DNA from: Saliphagus infecundisoli | Lineage (GTDB): Archaea > Halobacteriota > Halobacteria > Halobacteriales > Natrialbaceae | DNA: 64,000 nt | NCBI RefSeq assembly: GCF_020177375.1 | Contig: NZ_JAIWHV010000018.1 | Coordinates: 1-64,000 of the forward strand | Reading direction: 5' to 3' | Shown: in pieces, positions 1,121-20,623 of the stretch | How positions within the stretch are numbered: the stretch's first letter is position 1 | Layout: each line of letters begins with the position of its first letter | Program-made: the position numbers and the translations under genes | Notes under the pieces: model-generated | Told to the model about the DNA's origin: nothing | Databases searched by the model: none | Seen by the model: only the letters and a program-made list of their open reading frames with translations

Positions 1121-2448
1121 ATGAAGTTCCTCTACCATCCAGACACCGTTCTTACGGCCTCTGACCTTGAAAGCGTAGCGCTTGACCTTCTCTCCGAGAT
1201 CCCGATCCCCGGAGTCGAAGGCTGCGGCTTCGACTCCGGGATCATCCGAGAGACACTGCTCCAAGCCGCTGTCGACCAGAAGTCCATCAAGGCAGTCACC
1301 GACAGCACTCTCGGAACGTATTCCGATGACTACACGCTTGCCCAACTTCACACGGTCCGGCCTGCTGCCCTCGAAACAATCGCGAACCGCCTTCTCTGCC
1401 AGCAAGCGGCGATGATCCTCGGCGCCGGGCCGAGGATCATCTGCCTCGACTTCGTCGATATCCATTATCACGGCTGTCCACACGCTGACGCTAGCGAACT
1501 CTGTCACACGAAGCCTCGCGATGGCACCTCCCAGTGCCATCGCTACCTCGCTGGGTTCGTTCTCTGTCGAGCCAAACCACTCGTCGTCGCGGTCACACCC
1601 GTCCGGAGTGATGAATTGAAGAGCGACGCGGTCGAGCGAGTGCTCGACCACGTCGCGGCCCTTCCGTTTGACGTCGCTGGCGTTCTCGCCGACCGTGGAT
1701 TCTACGACGGAACGTCGATCGAGCGACTGGATGCAGCCGCACCAGTCGCTCTCCCGATCATCCGCCGTGGAAAGCGAATGGCCGAGAAACTCGATACGAC
1801 GGTATCCTACTGGACGGAGTACGTGATGTACGAGGGGAGCGAGCGGGAACTGGAGTGATTAGCGCAATGGATGAATACGCATCACAGGCTCCAGCTCAAA
1901 GCGCTTCTCACCACGAGTGGATTTCCCGATTAAACAAGCCTCCGAGCGTCGCTGAGAACTAAATCGCCACGTTCCTTCTGAATATTCAAGTGTTGCAGTG
2001 ACCACTCCGCTTCCCGCTCGCGGTCTGTGTCTCTTACCAGCAGGGCAATCGAGGCAAACACGGCTTGCTCGTTCGGGCGTACGTGGCGTGCGATCTGACC
2101 GATTACACGCCGAAAGACGTCGAAGCTCTCTATCAAAAACGCTCGGCGATCGAGACAGCCTTTCGGACGATGCGAGAAGCGCGTGCACGAACCAGCACGA
2201 CTGATCCAGCCGTACGGTTGTTATTCGTCCTGGTGAGCTTCCTGTTGCGGAATCTCTGGGTGATCGTTCGATGGGGCGTGCTCGCCACGCCGCGGCGCGG
2301 CGGGCGAGCACTGCCGGTCTGGTTCCGATTCGAGGTGTTCCGAGAATGGATCGACCACGCTCTTGATGAAACCCTCCGCCGGAAGTGGGAAGCTCCAACC
2401 AACCGAAGCGGGATCCCGGCGACCTTCAGTCAGCTGGACGCGGGCTGA
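1121..2448 (+). pseudogene. ISH3-family transposase, interrupted by a 155-bp MITE
   Basis: The DDE transposase reads from 1121 to 1852, is broken by the insertion at 1853-2007, and continues from 2008 to the stop at 2446-2448. Removing the insertion restores one uninterrupted frame of 390 residues, the usual size for this family. Catalytic landmarks are LDFVDIHYHG, the ADRGFYDG segment before the break and SAIETAFRTM after it. The corresponding gene of the copy at 16763-20623 is uninterrupted at this site and shows what the target looked like. With the MITE, translation ends at the TGA at 1857-1859, inside the insertion. Confidence 0.85.
1853..2007. mobile_element. 155-bp miniature inverted-repeat element (MITE copy 1)
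   Basis: The element has imperfect terminal inverted repeats of about 27 bp: GAGTGATTAGCGCAATGG at one end and, read inward from the other, GAGTGGTCACTGCAACAC; both continue into a shared TGAATA. It differs at one base from the copy at 19199-19353, which lies in the opposite orientation. There is no coding capacity. The sequence on either side joins exactly into the uninterrupted transposase, so no target duplication was made. The insertion lies at the centre of an 11-bp perfect inverted repeat of the target (arms 1839-1849 and 2011-2021). Confidence 0.9.
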
Positions 2449-2654: not shown

Positions 2655-3195
2655 TTAGAATTCCGTGCACCAGGTGCACAGCTTTCTTAGACTGTTATAG
2701 CCCTCTTGAGAATTAACTTTCAAACCTTCTCCGAGCCATTCGAAAACATCGTCGATTACGGGTTCGAGATCGGTCGATCGTGTCTCTGGACGGTGGTTTG
2801 TCGAGTCCACAGTAGTACCAAACGAGAGTGTGCTGGAGTTCTCGAGTGACTGGGCGTGTGCCGTAGATATTCTTGTAGTAGCAGTGTAGAAAGCCGCAAA
2901 AGAGATCGGGTGGCTGATGAACTCGTGCTCGCCCCCGTTCGAGTAATTGGCGTAACCTTTGCACGTCCAAGCTCTGCAAACTGCATCTCCTCGTCCCGTC
3001 GGTCCCAGCCTTGACGACCACGTGTTCAAACGTTACGCAGACCACTCCATCGGGGGCGAGCACGTCGTACTTCTGGAGAAACTCGAACTCAAGATGTTCG
3101 AACAGCGGTACTGTCTCTGTCGCCGCCGCATTCAAGAACTCGTCGACCGAACCCACGTTTTGCAGTGCATTGGAGCTGCTGGACACAGTTTCCAA
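2655..3195 (-). pseudogene. Transposase remnant, N-terminal part, frameshifted
   Basis: The minus-strand frame from 3195 reads like a haloarchaeal DDE-transposase N-terminus: a DLFCGFLHCYY segment, then VTRELQHTLVWYYCGLDKPP and SRDTID. A frameshift near 2775 moves the continuation (DLEPVIDDVFEWLGEG) to another frame, which stops at 2655-2657. It carries no catalytic core. It probably forms one relic with the fragment at 737-1009, split by ISH3-A. The family is unresolved. Confidence 0.45.
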
Positions 3196-7330: not shown

Positions 7331-7506
7331 TAATGACTAAGATAATTTTTGAAAGTCAAGGAATCTCTCACACCACTTCTTTGCGAAACTGATTCGCTGC
7401 GTTATTTTCTCGAACGTCTCTTGAACGAGCTCTTTGAACTCGTCTTCGTTCTCAACGACGATCGGTGCCATCGTCCACTTGAGAAAGTCCCAGACTTTCT
7501 CAATTG

Positions 7507-8446
7507 GGCTCTGTTGAATCACTAGACGGCGGCGGGATCGATCGCTAATTCAAAGGAGCTGAAGCGGGAGACTTCGGTTGCCTATGACCCAAATCTCCCG
7601 CTTCATCAGGGAGGTTGTGCCGGTTGCTCAAAACGTTACTGGCGATGGAGACGAATCCGCCGCCCCGGAAGGTGGCAGCGGATTCGCCGACTACGCACTT
7701 GTTTCTCTCCACTGTCTGCGGATTTACCTCGATGCGTCCTACCGGATGACGATCGACTTGTTGAAAGAGATGCCACAAATAACCGGGGAGATCGGCCGCG
7801 CTGAGGCCGATCTCCCCTCACCATCCACGTTGTGTAAAGCGTTCGACCGGATCAGTATGAGCGTCTGTCGAGTGTTGCTGCGCCAGTCGGCGCAGCTCCA
7901 CGACCCGTCCGAACACGGCGCGATCGACGCAACGTTCTATGAACGGTCAGCTGCGAGCCGCCACTACTGCCAGCGAATCAGCTACCGCGTTCAGAAGCTG
8001 AAGGTCACGAAACTCGTCGATACTGAGTCTCAAGCCGTCCTCGACGTTCACTGTTCGACGACCCGGGAAGGAAGCGATGCAGATCTCTGTGAGCAGATCG
8101 CCCGCCGGAACGCGGGCGATCTGCGGTCTCTGGCCGCCGATAAGGGCTACGACAAGCAGGCGCTCCGCACTGCACTCCGCGAACTCGGCATCAGACCGCT
8201 GATCAAGCACCGCATCTTCGCCCCATACGACCACGCACACAACGCCAGAATCGACGAACAACGCTACAATCAGCGCTCTATGACCGAGACGGTGAATTCA
8301 GCTGTCAAGCGCTCGCTCGGCTTCGCCGTGCGAGCGCGTTCCTGGTTCCGTGAGTTCCGCGAGATTGCGCTGATGTGTGTCGTCTATAACATCAAGCGAG
8401 CTGTGAAGCAGTGAATTCCACCGCCCTATGGCGATTCAACAGAGCC
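7507..8446 (+). mobile_element. IS5-family (ISH1 group) insertion sequence
   Basis: The 940-bp element has a 14-bp perfect inverted repeat, GGCTCTGTTGAATC at 7507 and its complement ending at 8446. It is flanked by the 8-bp duplication CTCAATTG (7499-7506 and 8447-8454), the duplication size known for the ISH1 group. It has inserted into the IS630 transposase D1. The transposase is intact, so this is probably the youngest layer here. Confidence 0.88.
7584..8414 (+). CDS. IS5-family (ISH1-type) transposase
   Basis: This is a 276-residue DDE transposase. GAIDATFYE supplies the first Asp, AADKGYDK the second, and RSMTETVNSAVKR the Glu. The helical N-terminus with YALVSLHCLRIYL is typical of haloarchaeal IS5 enzymes. 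The ATG at 7584 is preferred over the TTG at 7578. No frameshift or stop is present and both element ends are intact, so mobility is plausible. Confidence 0.88.
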   Translation: MTQISRFIREVVPVAQNVTGDGDESAAPEGGSGFADYALVSLHCLRIYLDASYRMTIDLLKEMPQITGEIGRAEADLPSPSTLCKAFDRISMSVCRVLLRQSAQLHDPSEHGAIDATFYERSAASRHYCQRISYRVQKLKVTKLVDTESQAVLDVHCSTTREGSDADLCEQIARRNAGDLRSLAADKGYDKQALRTALRELGIRPLIKHRIFAPYDHAHNARIDEQRYNQRSMTETVNSAVKRSLGFAVRARSWFREFREIALMCVVYNIKRAVKQ

Positions 8447-9423
8447 CTCAATTGGGTTGAGATGCGGCGATCCTGACGGGATGAAGATCAGGTTGATTCC
8501 CAGCTGATGCGCGCGCTTGCGCGTGTACTGACAGATATGTGCTCCATGTTTGTCCAAGACGAGCAGAATCCGCTTGCCGGGATTCTGCTCGCGCACCTCC
8601 TCCAAGACGTCACAGATCCGCTCCTTCTTTTCGTCTTCCTTGAACGTCACGTGACTGGCACCGTTCAGTGCGTAGAATCCAACCGCAGAGTCGTGCGTTT
8701 TCACTAACGGCCGTTCAATGTGCGGGTCGTCGACGTACCAGACACGGCGCGAATTATCGTACGGCTGTGGTTTCGACGCGTCGAAGAATCCAAGGACAGT
8801 GCCGCCATCAGTACAGACATCGTCGTCAACGACCCAGCCGTCTCCGTCTTCTCCCTCGCGTTTGTTGTGTGGCTGCTCGTCCTCGTCGAGCGCGTCATCG
8901 ACGCGCTCTTCGAGAATCTTATCTGGGTTCTCCGGCCGACTTGGTCGCTTTGGCCGTGGTTTCGCGTATGACAGACCTAGCTCTCGAAGGAACGTCCCGA
9001 GGTAATTCGGACTGTACTCGACGCCGAACTCTTCGGTGAGAAGATGCTGAATCTCCTGTGATTTCCAGGGCTGGCCCTCACGGAGCATCTCGACCAGCTC
9101 TTCTTGTTCGTCCTTGTCGAGTTTCGGGGGCCGGCCGCCCCCGAAACTCGGCATCAGTTCTTCGAGCCCACCTTCATTCCAGGCTTCTGCCCAGCGATCA
9201 CCGGTGGCCGCCGACCTGCCTTCCCGGTCGGCGGCCTCCGGAATCGAATCACCCTGATAGAGGTTTTTCAGGAACCCGAGACGCCGAAGTCGGTGATCGT
9301 CTTCAGCCTCACGGAGCAATTCGTCGATCTCCTCTTCAGACAGGTGGTGCTTGATCTCCTTGCGACGTGAGCGTTCCATGAACGACAGTCGGCATTAACT
9401 CACAAAAGTTTTCGTACTCATTA

Positions 9424-13338: not shown

Positions 13339-13539
13339 CACGCTCACTTTTAACGAGGTGGTCTTGTAAGACACAACCAGACCATTCGTGTTCTGTTAAG
13401 AACACCAAGAGATGCCGCCAGATTCGACCACGATTTATTAGATGTAGAATAGAGTGTCGTAGAACTCTTTACACACCTCGGTAACACCTGAAAAACGGCC
13501 GTTTGAGAAGGGGTACATCCGTCTTTAGTTAGCCCTCAC

Positions 13540-14936
13540 ACCTCGGTTGCGTAGCGGTAGCGAGCGTCTCTTGAAGGATCGGTCGTTGCTGGCGAATCTT
13601 CTGTGCGTCTTCGATCAGTCGGTCCAACAGCGGCGGTGGCGAATAGCCGAGGTGTTCGCCGAGTTCGTGGAGGATGAGCTGGGCGTGCGACCGAGAGTGG
13701 TCTGCGTCACTTCTGAATATTGGCTGCTAAGCAACTCTACGGCGTACCATGCGGCCCGGTGAATAGCCACTGCTCGAGTATTCAAAACAAAAGCTGATCA
13801 CTCAAGGTCGCCGCCCAGCGCTCGCGCGGGAACACGATCTCATCGTCAGCCTCCTCGGTGACCAGATCCAGCAAATCACGGCTCACCAGCAGTGACAGCA
13901 ACGCTGCATACAGCAGAATCTCAACAACCGCCGGGTGTCGAACTCGTCGAGTTCGTACTGCGTCTTCAGCTCACGGAACAGCAACTCCACCTCCTACCGA
14001 CACCGGTATAGCGTTGCCAGATCGGCCGGGAGGAACTCCTCTCTGGGCAGATTCGTGATGTAGAGATGGTAGTCGTTGGCGTCCTCGTTGCGGACGCCGA
14101 CGACGCGGAACCGCTTCGTATCCAGCGAGCGCGTTCCCTCATACGGCCCTCGCTTGAATTCCGCTTCGACTTCCACGTCGATGTACTCGCGGTAGAGATC
14201 GTCCACGACATCGTGGATCTGCTCGCCTTCCAGAGGGATGGCGCGGCCGCGCCATCCCCGTAATTCCGCCGTTATCACCGGATTTGCGCTCTTCTTCAAC
14301 CGACTCACGAAGTAGCCGTCGTTCTCATCGATCAACGCGAACCGGCGGTACTTGAAGTACGCCAGATCGATGAGAACGAGCCGTCCCTGCAGCCACGAGC
14401 CTGTCTTGAACAGCGTGCTGTCGTGCGTTTTTTTCGTCGGTCACGTCGAGCCGTTCGATCGTCTGATCGGTGGCATTGTGGAGCAGGTGGAGCGTCGCTC
14501 CAGCCTGCTCCTCTTTCCGAGCCTGGTATTCATCGGAGAGAAATTCGTGCAACCGCAGGATGGTTCCATCCGCAATCATCACGTCCCTGAATCGGTCGAG
14601 ATCAGCGTCGACAGCATCGGGAACAGCGACCTCGTCGAGACCGCGCTCGACGAGGTCGCGGAGGTACTCCGCGAGCGAGGGCGTCAACCGCTGATTGAAA
14701 CCACCAGGCGAGATCGGTTCGTCGGCTGTGGAGTTGTAGCTGCGTCGGAAGCCAGCGAGTGTTCGGCTCTCGCCTGCGGCGAAGCCGAACACGAGCGCCC
14801 AGACGAACGCTGGAATCTGGAGCTTGCGATCGCGTTCGACCACGCCGAGTTCCTCGGCGTGCTCTTCGAGGAACTTGGAGGGAAACAGTGTAGTGAGCCG
14901 ACGCATAAGCCGGGATGAGGTGGCTTTGATGTGCAC
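13540..14936 (-). pseudogene. ISH8-type transposase with frameshift, stop and MITE insertion
   Basis: The minus-strand gene begins near 14936 (SSRLMRRLTTLFPSKFLEE) and runs through VMIADGTILRLHEFLSDE. A frameshift in a T-run near 14430 follows, then ENDGYFVSRLKKSANPVI and YITNLPREEFLPADLATLY in another frame. An in-frame TAG near 13994 falls where relatives have a Trp before EVELLFRELK. The MITE at 13695-13803 interrupts the last quarter. At least three lesions make it inactive. Confidence 0.85.
13695..13803. mobile_element. 109-bp miniature element (MITE copy 3)
   Basis: The ends are GAGTGGTCTGCGTCAC leading to TGAATATT and, inward from the right, GAGTGATCAGCTTTTG leading to TGAATACT. They are of the same type as the 155-bp elements, but the interior differs. 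The flanks join into the coding sequence expected for ISH8 transposases with no duplicated base. They form GCGACC (13687-13692), a 4-nt loop and GGTCGC (13806-13811), with the insertion at the middle of the loop. Confidence 0.8.
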
Positions 14937-15283
14937 AGCCGTCGCCTCCTCATTCCTCTCGCAAAGAAGTCCCGATAAGTCGCTGCTGTCATGCGGTTCG
15001 TCTCTTAACTAAAGACGGATGGAGAAGGGGTATTATTGCCGTCTTTCAGAATCAGTGGGTGCAGATCTCTCAATGTCGTAGAAAATCACACCAAGCGTTC
15101 TATAACACTCTTGTAGAAACTAATTCCACTCTTACCGTTCTATCATACATTTTTCTTTATGAGTATTAAATATAAAAATATAAATTTTGCGTTACTTCTT
15201 GGATCGACAGTACGAAGGGATAGGTCATCCTTCTCGAAGGATATGAAGCCAATTGGTTCCCATCGATCCACGGGAGGCTTGAC

Positions 15284-16687: not shown

Positions 16688-17807
16688 ATAGTCGGTAGTT
16701 CCCATCGAATCAGAACGTAGTCAGGACTGATAGGGTTAGATTCTCAGAGAGCGTCTAGATGGGTGCGTGTGAGATTCCTATACCATCCAGACACTGTTCT
16801 TACGGCCTCTGAGCTTGAAACGTTAGCGCTCGGTCTGCTCGCAGAGATACCGATCCCCGGAGTCGAAGACTGCCGCTTCGACTCCGGGATCATCCGAGAG
16901 ACACTCCTCCAAGCCGCTGTCGACCAGAAATCAATCAAAGCTGTCACCGATACTACTCGGGGAACGTACTCCGACGACTACACGCTGACACAGCTTCACA
17001 CGGTTCCGCCTGCTGAACTGGAAGCACTCGTCAATGACCTCTTCGTCGAGCAGACGGCGATGATCCTCGGCCCCGGCCCGAGGATCATCTGCCTCGACTT
17101 CGTCGATATCCATTACCACGGCTGTCCACACGCTGAACCTGGCGAACTCTGTCACACGAAGCCTCGCGATGGCACCTCCCAGTGCCATCGCTACCTCGCT
17201 GGATTCATCCTCAGTCGATCACATCGGGTTAGAGTAAGTGTGTGCTTGGAGAGTGCGTGCAACAAACCCAAGCAGACAACGAGGTAGAGGAAGAGCACCT
17301 GCTTAATTTTGTCGTCAACAGTCTCGGAGACGAGCTCCCGATTGATCTCGGTGAGAACGTAGAGGTCTCCGCTGATGAGTTATACGAGGTCCTCGCCGGC
17401 GCCAGCGCCGGCGGGACCTCGATCAATCACGTCTGCGAGACGACCGACGAGTCGCCCCACGCCAACACCGTCCGTGACCATCTCACCGATCAGTTCGACC
17501 TGGACGCTGTTGAGGCGGTCGGGAACACGCTCCTTCAACGAGATGCCCTCGAGACGCTTCCCGATCGACCGGTGGAGGTCGTCGCCGACCTCCACCTCGA
17601 TCCCTACTACGGTGACGAGGACGAGACGGAGGCGCTGTACTTCTCGCAGGCGAAACGAGGAACCACGGCGTTTCACGCCTACGTCACGCTCTACGCGCGG
17701 GTACGCAACAAGCGGTATACGCTGGCGGTCCGCCAGCTGGTCGCTGGCGAGACCACAAGCGAAGTCCTCGCGGAGTTTCTGACTCTGCTCGACGGCCTTG
17801 ACGCGTA

Positions 17808-18948
17808 ATGACTAAGATAATTTTTGAAAGTCAAGGAACTTCTCACACCACTTCTTTGCGAAGCTGATTCGTTGCGTTATTTTCTCGAACGTCTCTTGAA
17901 CGAGCTCTTTGAACTCGTCTTCGTTCTCAACGACGATCGGTGCCATTGTCCACTTGAGAAAGTCCCAGACTTTCTCGATAGGATTGAGATGCGGCGATCC
18001 TGACGGGATGAAAATCAGGTCGATTCCCAGTTGATGCGCGCGCTTGCGCGTATACTTACAGATATGTGCTCCGTGCTTGTCCAAGACCAGCAGAATCCGC
18101 TTGCCGGGATTCTGCTCGCGCACCTCCTCCAAGACGCCACAGATCCGCTCCTTCTTTTCGTCTTCCGTGAACGTCACGTGACTCTCACCGTTCAGTGCGT
18201 AGAATCCAACCGCAGAGTCGTGCGTTTTCACTAATGGCCGTTCAATGTGCGGGTCGTCGACGTACCAGACACGGCGTGAATTATCGTACGGCTGTGGTTT
18301 CGACGCGTCGAAGAATCCAAGGACAGTGCCGCCATCAGTACAGACATCGTCGTCAACGACCCAGCCGTCTCCGTCTTCTCCCTCGCGTTTGTTGTGTGGC
18401 TGCTCGTCCTCGTCGAGCGCGTCATCGACGCGCTCTTCGAGAATCTCATCTGGGTTCTCCGGCCGACTTGGTCGCTTTGGCCGTGGTTTCGCGTATGACA
18501 GACCGAGCTCCCGAAGGAACGTCCCGAGATAATTCGGACTGTACTCGACGCCGAACTCTTCGGTGAGAAGATGCTGAATCTCCTGCGATTTCCAGGGCTG
18601 GCCGTCACGGAGCATCTCCACCAGGTCTTCTTGTTCGTCTTCGTCGAGTTTCGGGGGCCGGCCGCCCCCGAAACTCGGCATCAGTTCTTCGAGGCCGCCT
18701 TCGTTCCAGGCTTCTGCCCAGCGATCACCCGTCGCCGCCGACCTGCCTTCACGGTCGGCGGCTTCCGGAATCGAATCACCCTGATAGAGGTTTTTCAGGA
18801 ACCCGAGACGCCGCAGTCTGTGATCGTCTTCAGCCTCACGCAGCAATTCGTCGATCTCCTCTTCAGACAGGTGGTGCTTGATCTCCTTGCGACGTGAGCG
18901 TTCCATGAACGACAGTCGGAATTAACTCACAAAAGTTTTCGTATTCAT
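17808..18948 (-). mobile_element. Intact IS630-family element D2 at the apex of an inverted repeat
   Basis: The 1141-bp element has ends ATGACTAAGATAATTTTT and, inward from the other side, ATGAATACGAAAACTTTT, each preceded outside by TA. The host sequence forms a perfect 12-bp inverted repeat, GACGGCCTTGAC (17791-17802) and GTCAAGGCCGTC (18954-18965), with the element exactly between GCG and CAG of the loop. It is the intact counterpart of D1 at 7333-9421. Confidence 0.88.
17812..18906 (-). CDS. IS630-family transposase (intact)
   Basis: This 364-residue DDE transposase is full length for the family. The N-terminal helix-turn-helix half includes EEIDELLREAEDDHRLRR and QPWKSQEIQHLLTEEFGVEY. 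The catalytic half has GFFDASKPQPYD (first Asp), LLVLDKHGAHI (second Asp) and SPHLNPIEKVWDFLK (Glu). The stop lies 4 bp from the element end, as in D1. It could mobilise D1 and other copies with the same ends; the MITEs have different ends and need the 6578-type enzyme. Confidence 0.9.
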   Translation of the reverse strand: MERSRRKEIKHHLSEEEIDELLREAEDDHRLRRLGFLKNLYQGDSIPEAADREGRSAATGDRWAEAWNEGGLEELMPSFGGGRPPKLDEDEQEDLVEMLRDGQPWKSQEIQHLLTEEFGVEYSPNYLGTFLRELGLSYAKPRPKRPSRPENPDEILEERVDDALDEDEQPHNKREGEDGDGWVVDDDVCTDGGTVLGFFDASKPQPYDNSRRVWYVDDPHIERPLVKTHDSAVGFYALNGESHVTFTEDEKKERICGVLEEVREQNPGKRILLVLDKHGAHICKYTRKRAHQLGIDLIFIPSGSPHLNPIEKVWDFLKWTMAPIVVENEDEFKELVQETFEKITQRISFAKKWCEKFLDFQKLS

Positions 18949-19198
18949 TACAGGTCAAGGCCGTCTACCTCGACCGCGGCTTCTACAACAGCGGCTGCCT
19001 CGAATTACTGTACGCACACAACTACGCCTTCATCATACCGATCGTCAAATGGGGTGAGACGATTCAAGACGAACTCAGCAGCGGCTGGAGCCGGGTGATC
19101 GAGCACGAACTCGCCGGGCGGGTGACGTTCCTTGTGTTCATCGACTGCGTCTACCAGCGAGGTCGCTACGATGAACACGGGGTGGCGCGTCACGGCTA

Positions 19199-19353
19199 GA
19201 GTGGTCACTGCAACACTTGAATATTCAGAAGGAACGTGGCGATCTAGTTCTCAGCGACGCTCGGAGGCTTGTTTAATCGGGAAATCCACTCGTGGTGAGA
19301 AGCGCTTTGAGCTGGAGCCTGTGATGCGTATTCATCCATTGCGCTAATCACTC
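19199..19353. mobile_element. 155-bp miniature element (MITE copy 2)
   Basis: This is the reverse complement of the copy at 1853-2007 with a single mismatch in 155 bp, so the two are recently related. It interrupts the copy-B transposase after CGGCTA. The right flank resumes ACGCCG, so at most one A is duplicated. Copy C gives the uninterrupted site at about 5725-5755, an inverted repeat GGCGCGTCACGGC, TAC, GCCG and so on, and the MITE sits in the TAC loop. Confidence 0.9.
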
Positions 19354-20623
19354 ACGCCGCTGACGCGCCGTTCATCGACACCCCACGAGAAGCCCGAGAA
19401 CACTACAGCAAGCGCTTCGGCATCGAATCAAGCTACCGGTTAGCCAAGCAGAGCCTCGCTCTGACCAGTTCTCGGGACGCTGGGCTTCGGCTCTTGCTGT
19501 TCGTCGTGAGTCTGTTGCTCCAGAACGTCTGGCGGTATCTCCACTGGAAGTACGTGGCGGCGCCCCGCCGCGGGGGGCGCCGCCTCTGGGACTGGCCGTT
19601 CACGGAGTTCTGTGAGATGGTGCTGCGCGCTGTCTGGACAGCACTTGGCGTTCGCAGGTCTGTTCCAGCGAATCAACCTCTGGACGACCGGTTCTTCCGG
19701 TAGTTGTCCCTGAATTGGGTCGGCGGTCGTGAGTGGAAACACTGTCGCGTCGGCGGCGATCCGCCGCCGACAGCGACTGTCCAGTGCTGATCACCGTCTC
19801 CGCCACTCCTCCGACACTATCCGAGCACGGATCAGACCGGTTCAGCATGTTCTCAATGCATTCGTGCGGTCACTGATGTGATCGACTGATCCTCTGTCGG
19901 GCGAAACCGCTCATCGTCGCGGTCACACCCGTCCGGAGTGACGAACCGAAGAGCGACGCGGTCGAGCGCCTGCTCGACCACGTCGCGGCCCTTCCATTTG
20001 AGATTGCTGCCCTCCTCGCCGACCGTGGGTTCTACGCCGGCGCGTCGATCGAGCGACTGGATGCAGCCGCATCAGTCGCTCTTCCAGTCATCCGCGGTGG
20101 GAAACAGATGGCTGAGAAACTCGATACGACGATCTCCTACTGGACGGAGTACGTGATGTACGAGGGGAGCGAGCGGGAACTGCGCTTCCCGCTCGCGGTC
20201 TGTGTCTCCTACCAACAGGGCAACCGGGGAAAACACGGCTTGCTCGTGCGGGCGTACGTGGCGTGCGATCTGGCTGATCGCACGCCGAAAGAAGTCGAAG
20301 CCCTCTACCAGAAACGCTCAGCGATCGAGACAGCCTTCCGAACGATGCGCGAAGCGCGTGCGCGGACAAGCACGACTGATCCAACCGTTCGGTTGTTGTT
20401 CGTTCTCGTGAGCTTCCTGCTGCGGAATCTGTGGCTCATCGTTCGGTGGGGCGTGCTCGCCACGCCGCGGCGCGGCGGGCGAGCACTGCCTGCTTGGTTT
20501 CGCTTCGAGGTGTTCCGTGAGTGGATTGATCACGTCCTTGACGACACGTTGGACCGGAAGTGGGAAGCACCGACAAACGGCGTCGGCATCCCGGCGACCT
20601 ACAGCCAGCTGGACGCGGGCTAA

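Follow-up and report, generated by a model that had tools for sequence, protein, structure and literature searches.

Mobile elements with related targets

Palindromic targets or recognition of hairpins are known for IS1397 and other REP-targeting insertion sequences as well as for IS200/IS605. IS1397 depends on a specific palindromic repeat and generates a duplication of a few bp, and IS605 moves by a Y1 single-strand mechanism into sequence-specific targets. The haloarchaeal elements described here resemble them in having palindromes or hairpins as targets. In case of IS1272, a stem-loop of varying sequence is recognised and replaced without duplication, a process termed inverted-repeat-replacing transposition (PMC5678879). 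The stem-loop target of varying sequence and the lack of a target duplication are common to the IS1272/IS1182 family and the present elements, but IS1272 deletes the stem-loop (PMC5678879), whereas the present elements keep both arms and the loop, insert between them, and depend on a different transposase family. Loss of the target stem-loop, as in IS1272, was not encountered at any of the four sites compared with their empty counterparts.

IS630 and ISY100 target TA and duplicate it as Tc1/mariner elements do, without a fundamental mechanistic difference (PMC2170065). The present elements agree with these members of the IS630/Tc1-mariner group in transposase family (N-terminal HTH, DDE domain), a length of approximately 1.1 kb, TIRs, and the occurrence of MITE derivatives. 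However, IS630 and ISY100 insert at TA, whereas members of the clade described here are inserted at the tips of hairpins, in targets without TA, and duplicate 0-1 bp. Membership in IS630 is claimed for the transposase only; the targeting is a variant. No earlier account of hairpin-tip targeting by IS630 elements was found in the literature searched, with ISfinder and most subscription journals lying outside this search, and we provisionally regard it as a new variant within IS630/Tc1-mariner.

The SMR-A repeats of Haloquadratum walsbyi were reported in 2011 to have ends unlike those of any transposon, and their mobilisation was called "enigmatic" (PMC3119063). Compared by description only, they are similar to the present short elements in length (approximately 110 bp), inverted ends, absence of a target duplication, and insertion in palindromes (PMC3119063). 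The palindromes hit by SMR-A are those of IS605-type elements and PATEs (PMC3119063), whereas the present targets are any hairpin, ordinary genes included; furthermore, a parent transposon was identified for the elements reported here. By analogy, hairpin targeting by IS630 elements may explain the SMR-A repeats. On the H. walsbyi plasmid PL47, no GAGTG-type element was found, and a de novo scan for SMR-like elements gave nothing convincing.

A 109-bp element in the loop of an ISH8 hairpin

The window comprises 64,000 nucleotides of contig C9 of a 4.5-Mb haloarchaeal assembly with 76 contigs (referred to as the own genome). Its mobile elements and target hairpins are listed in Table 1.

Table 1. 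Elements and target hairpins located in the window.
Feature	Position	Strand	Remarks
109-bp non-autonomous element (MITE)	13695..13803	+	Imperfect 25-bp TIRs GAGTGRTY-N11-TGAATA; pattern matches and 107-109 bp relatives elsewhere
Target hairpin in ISH8-type transposase, left arm and half loop	13679..13694	+	CTGGGCG T GCGACC + GA
Target hairpin, right half loop AA and right arm GGTCGCCGCCCAG	13804..13818	+	
Host ISH8-type IS4-family element, interrupted by the 109-bp MITE	13516..15022 (approximate limits)	-	
155-bp MITE	1853..2007	+	Tip of hairpin with 11-bp arms (CTG|CGC); exact empty paralogue at ~20160-20210, 0-bp duplication
155-bp MITE	19199..19353	-	Tip of hairpin GGCGCGTCACGGC-TAC-GCCGCTGACGCGCC; 1-bp (A) duplication
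Fourth GAGTG-type element, 107 bp	2941..3047	-	Tip of perfect hairpin with 14-bp arms (TTC|CAT); from window scan
Complete sister-lineage IS630 element, TIR TAATGA	17806..18950	-	364-aa transposase (17812-18906); tip of hairpin with 12-bp arms (GCG|CAG)
Second sister-lineage IS630 copy, itself interrupted	7331..9423	-	Left flank is hairpin half GAATCCGGTC in a lineage-1-type transposase gene

The region 13687-13811 consists of GCGACCGA, the 109 bp, and AAGGTCGC. The left end of the element is GAGTGGTCTGCGTCACTTCTGAATA, the opposite end, read inward, is GAGTGATCAGCTTTTGTTTTGAATA, and the interior is unlike that of the 155-bp elements at 1853-2007 and 19199-19353. This confirms the preliminary description of a short element with shared ends and an interior of its own inside an ISH8 transposase. 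Except for the 109 bp, the host is 82-87% identical to ISH8/ISHma1-type copies along its length. Its reading frame is also broken at places other than the MITE, and the fragment at 14325-14936 matches NCBIfam transpos_IS4_1 with 110 bits, slightly below the cut-off of 115.

Intact ISH8-type copies of Halapricum, Halobacterium salinarum R1 (ISH8E), Haloarcula marismortui (ISHma1), Halorubrum lacusprofundi, and Natrinema zhouii are all free of the 109 bp, and the flanks are joined in them as had been predicted from the window (...CTGGGCGTGCGACCGGAAGGTCGCCGCCCAG..., with small differences in one copy). Since the joined flanks of the element align to these copies from end to end without a gap, 0 bp were duplicated or lost, as the preliminary description had stated for this site. 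The empty site is arranged as CTGGGCG-T-GCGACC-GGAA-GGTCGC-CGCCCAG and folds into a 13-bp hairpin (-19.4 kcal/mol, z = -6.7) that has a GGAA tetraloop and a single bulged base, the element being located between loop bases 2 and 3 (GG|AA). A single base beside the left junction differs from the empty site (G to A). The hairpin pre-dated the insertion, and the element occupies the loop centre.

In the preliminary description three such elements were counted in the window; the actual number is four, due to the additional 107-bp element at 2941-3047. All four have a common 25-bp end, approximately GAGTGRTY-N11-TGAATA. With respect to the two sister-lineage IS630 elements, the one at 17806-18950 interrupts an ISH3-family transposase gene, and the copy at 7331-9423 is broken by another transposase-like ORF (7578-8414). 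The two flanks of the latter do not match each other and the partner of the left flank is situated on contig C4 (L047), which suggests, as judged from these sequences, recombination between IS copies.

Empty sites and target duplication

In addition to the ISH8 site, empty counterparts were compared for three insertions. The 1853 site gained 0 bp relative to its paralogue, and the same holds for element L177 of genome G112, the flanks of which are identical (151/151) to those of an empty copy in the same genome (L214) that lacks TA. In case of the 19199 site, empty copies on contigs C28 and C57 (L259 and L260) reveal a 1-bp duplication, the central A of a 3-nt loop being doubled. Thus 0 bp were duplicated in three comparisons and 1 bp in one; insertion at TA with duplication of TA, as in IS630, was found at none of the four sites, and both arms and the loop were kept in all of them. 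The earlier statement that no base is duplicated is valid for the ISH8 and 1853 sites and does not extend to the 19199 site. The difference between this 3-nt loop and the even loops with empty sites may hint at symmetric cutting of both strands. A rule that odd loops always double their central base was dropped, since no doubled base is present at the junctions of other sites with odd loops. Considering the duplication at 19199 together with the G-to-A change at the ISH8 junction, joining may not always be clean.

These observations bear on the main rival explanation, in which the transposase or a host process would place a folded single-stranded copy of the element into a single-stranded hairpin loop, e.g., on the lagging strand or in IS200/IS605 intermediates, without duplication. 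Such a route accounts for the 0-bp gain and for joining at the loop centre, and cruciform and single-strand hairpin targets look alike at the sequence level. It would also fit the preference of H. walsbyi SMR-A for IS605-type terminal palindromes (PMC3119063) and the resemblance, by sequence alone, of some flanks found here to IS605-type ends. The associated enzyme, however, is a DDE transposase of IS630 type and not a Y1 protein, a single-strand splice is not expected to produce the 1-bp duplication at 19199, and many of the targets are internal to genes. We consider this route unlikely.

The MITE family and its parent transposons

A TIR pattern composed of the outer GAGTGNT and the inner TGAATA at fixed spacing matched 33 times in the own genome and 0 times when reversed as a control, so the element ends are not due to chance. 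The own genome contains 12 near-identical 155-bp copies and more divergent copies of 148-153 bp; for the 109-bp class, relatives of 107-109 bp are present in other haloarchaeal genera. At least one match was found in 31 of 392 Halobacteriales genomes, of which single matches may be chance. The plasmid collection searched contained no relatives of the 155-bp element.

The same ends delimit elements of approximately 1.1 kb in which an IS630-family transposase is encoded by two overlapping ORFs, the IS630 gene being the only one within this length. Such elements were found in Halostagnicola, Haloarcula, Halococcus, Halorubrum, Natrinema, and others, some copies having broken frames; full-size examples of this GAGTG-ended lineage (lineage 1) are L055, L062, L064, L065, L091, and L136, among others. 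Approximately 90 nt of the 155-bp MITE can be aligned to the 3' terminus of the IS. Since the short, non-coding elements carry the ends of these full-size transposons, they are MITEs of IS630. In the own genome, contig ends bearing the same TIR encode the C-terminus of an IS630-type transposase; a complete lineage-1 IS was not assembled there, only ends at contig edges (L009, L018, L024, and L140), and no full-size parent near the 109-bp subfamily was found in this genome. The transposases match NCBIfam transpos_IS630 above the cut-off of 100 (302 bits for the 364-aa sister protein, 110 and 115 bits for the two half-ORFs) and Pfam DDE_3. None was detected in the viral contigs searched. The IS630-family parent, as well as the full-size sister-lineage elements that obey the same hairpin rule (one of them in the window at 17806-18950), go beyond the preliminary description.

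Hairpin tips as targets

For 79 independent sites in many haloarchaeal genomes, element boundaries were derived from TIRs or copy alignment, never from flanks, and a hairpin was called for an ungapped inverted repeat across the junction with a score of at least 6. Hairpins were present at 60 of the 79 junctions (76%), compared with 3.3% after swapping of flanks and 2.9% at junctions placed randomly within these loci; the binomial tail is approximately 1e-75 with the sites taken as independent, which they are only approximately. The loop halves are equal in 49 of the 60 cases and unequal by one in the remainder. If boundaries from copy comparison only are considered (multi-copy elements, closed genomes), 22 of 23 sites are located at hairpins, namely 4/4 in the GAGTG lineage and 18/19 in the sister lineage with the ends TAATGA, TAGTGA, or TAGTAC. 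At the score used, 19 of the 79 sites have no clear hairpin; several of these with ill-matched flanks (e.g., C66 93398) may, judging from the flanking sequence, be rearranged. The proposal of a MITE family with shared ends, different interiors, and one loop-centre target rule is thus supported, the controls reaching approximately 3%.

Several targets are transposase genes, and many lie inside genes. The former would be in agreement with a less selective insertion than is apparent, in which copies in hairpins of other mobile elements merely survived selection. Selection would not, however, bring junction and symmetry centre together to within 0.5 nt, as observed in 57 of 58 strong cases (loops up to 12 nt allowed), and a TA-type IS630 lineage of the same order (see below) has no such bias, which makes survival a most improbable explanation. 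The target arms reach 18 bp without any sequence common to them, and no core sequence is shared among the targets or with the element ends. This absence of a core, together with the IS630 gene as sole gene of the ~1.1-kb elements and the use of TA by comparator IS630 elements of the same layout, also speaks against site-specific recombination of palindromic targets with a palindromic junction of the element, by a tyrosine recombinase or in the manner of integron attC sites, with the IS630 gene as a passenger. Palindromic targets, inverted ends, and the lack of a duplication do resemble attC or dif chemistry; even so, we hold recombination of this kind to be scarcely credible.

Sister and comparator lineages

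With the sister-lineage protein as query, hits at E <= 1e-30 were obtained in 79 of 392 genomes; some of the weaker hits are lineage-1 proteins. As comparator served a third, more distant haloarchaeal IS630 lineage, of which 20 copies from five genomes received the same treatment. Hairpins were detected at 0 of these 20 sites, and the flanks are of TA type. In a tree of the catalytic domain, the comparator is separated from all 61 rows of the hairpin lineages by one branch with a support of 100/100; long branches meet within the comparator group, the inner order of which is unsure. Two full-size groups therefore follow the hairpin rule and a third IS630 lineage of the same order does not.

Both ends of the sister-lineage elements carry TA, and a TA between the halves of a palindrome is itself palindromic. 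Given that IS630 and Tc1/mariner elements duplicate TA elsewhere (PMC2170065), the elements could be regarded as ordinary IS630 MITEs inserted at TA, with the TA of the sister lineage as normal duplication and the palindromes incidental or the result of a mild symmetric flank preference. However, TA is absent from the junctions of the GAGTG elements, the empty sites in ISH8, the 1853 paralogue, and L214 contain no TA and gained 0 bp, and a true TA-type lineage yielded 0/20 hairpins, while the arms of up to 18 bp have no sequence in common. Ordinary TA insertion is accordingly very improbable. Because the identical empty copy of L177 lacks TA and nothing was gained, the terminal TA belongs to the sister-lineage element itself.

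Proposed mechanism

Taken as a whole, the 109-bp element is very probably a MITE of a haloarchaeal IS630 clade (Tc1/mariner-type DDE) that targets the tips of hairpins or cruciforms of any sequence. Shared ends and a common target rule suggest that the MITE is mobilised in trans by the IS630 transposase, which would bind the 25-bp ends and excise the element. Both 3' ends would then be joined at the loop centre on the two strands, the simplest substrate being an extruded cruciform with its pair of hairpin tips. In an even loop, the positions on both strands would be equivalent, so that neither a stagger nor a target duplication would arise. The ancestral requirement for TA would have been lost, and the outermost TA or GA would now be the element's own. 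We think it likely that this Tc1/mariner-type DDE clade reads DNA shape alone instead of TA, with integration practically free of stagger at the apex of whichever hairpin is extruded, and that its MITEs, perhaps including SMR-A, spread in this way. If this is true, the same catalytic family with a structural target shows how target choice can be re-wired, the clade can serve as a marker for hairpins forming in living cells, and a candidate transposase is supplied for haloarchaeal small repeats of "enigmatic" movement.

Coding organisation and further copies

In 12 out of 12 lineage-1 elements (L055-L070, at approximately position 600), the orfA/orfB overlap contains an invariant TTTCGATGA, with orfB in the +1 frame, and at the corresponding position GFFD is encoded without a change of frame in the sister lineage. 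This sequence, in which TGA follows a CGA codon, is a candidate site of programmed +1 frameshifting. For the 364-aa transposase, AlphaFold produced a poor model (mean pLDDT of 51 from 15 sequences), and a PDB sequence search with this protein returned Sleeping Beauty only, with a weak match (E 0.016).

One IS copy (L184 of genome G162) is directly trailed at 1865-2064 by a repeat of its own last 200 bp. At the start of contig C33 of genome G000 (L024), a GAGTG element end is situated within the catalytic domain of another lineage-1 IS630 copy, the insertion point being the palindrome AACTCGGC|ATCGAGTT of that transposase gene.
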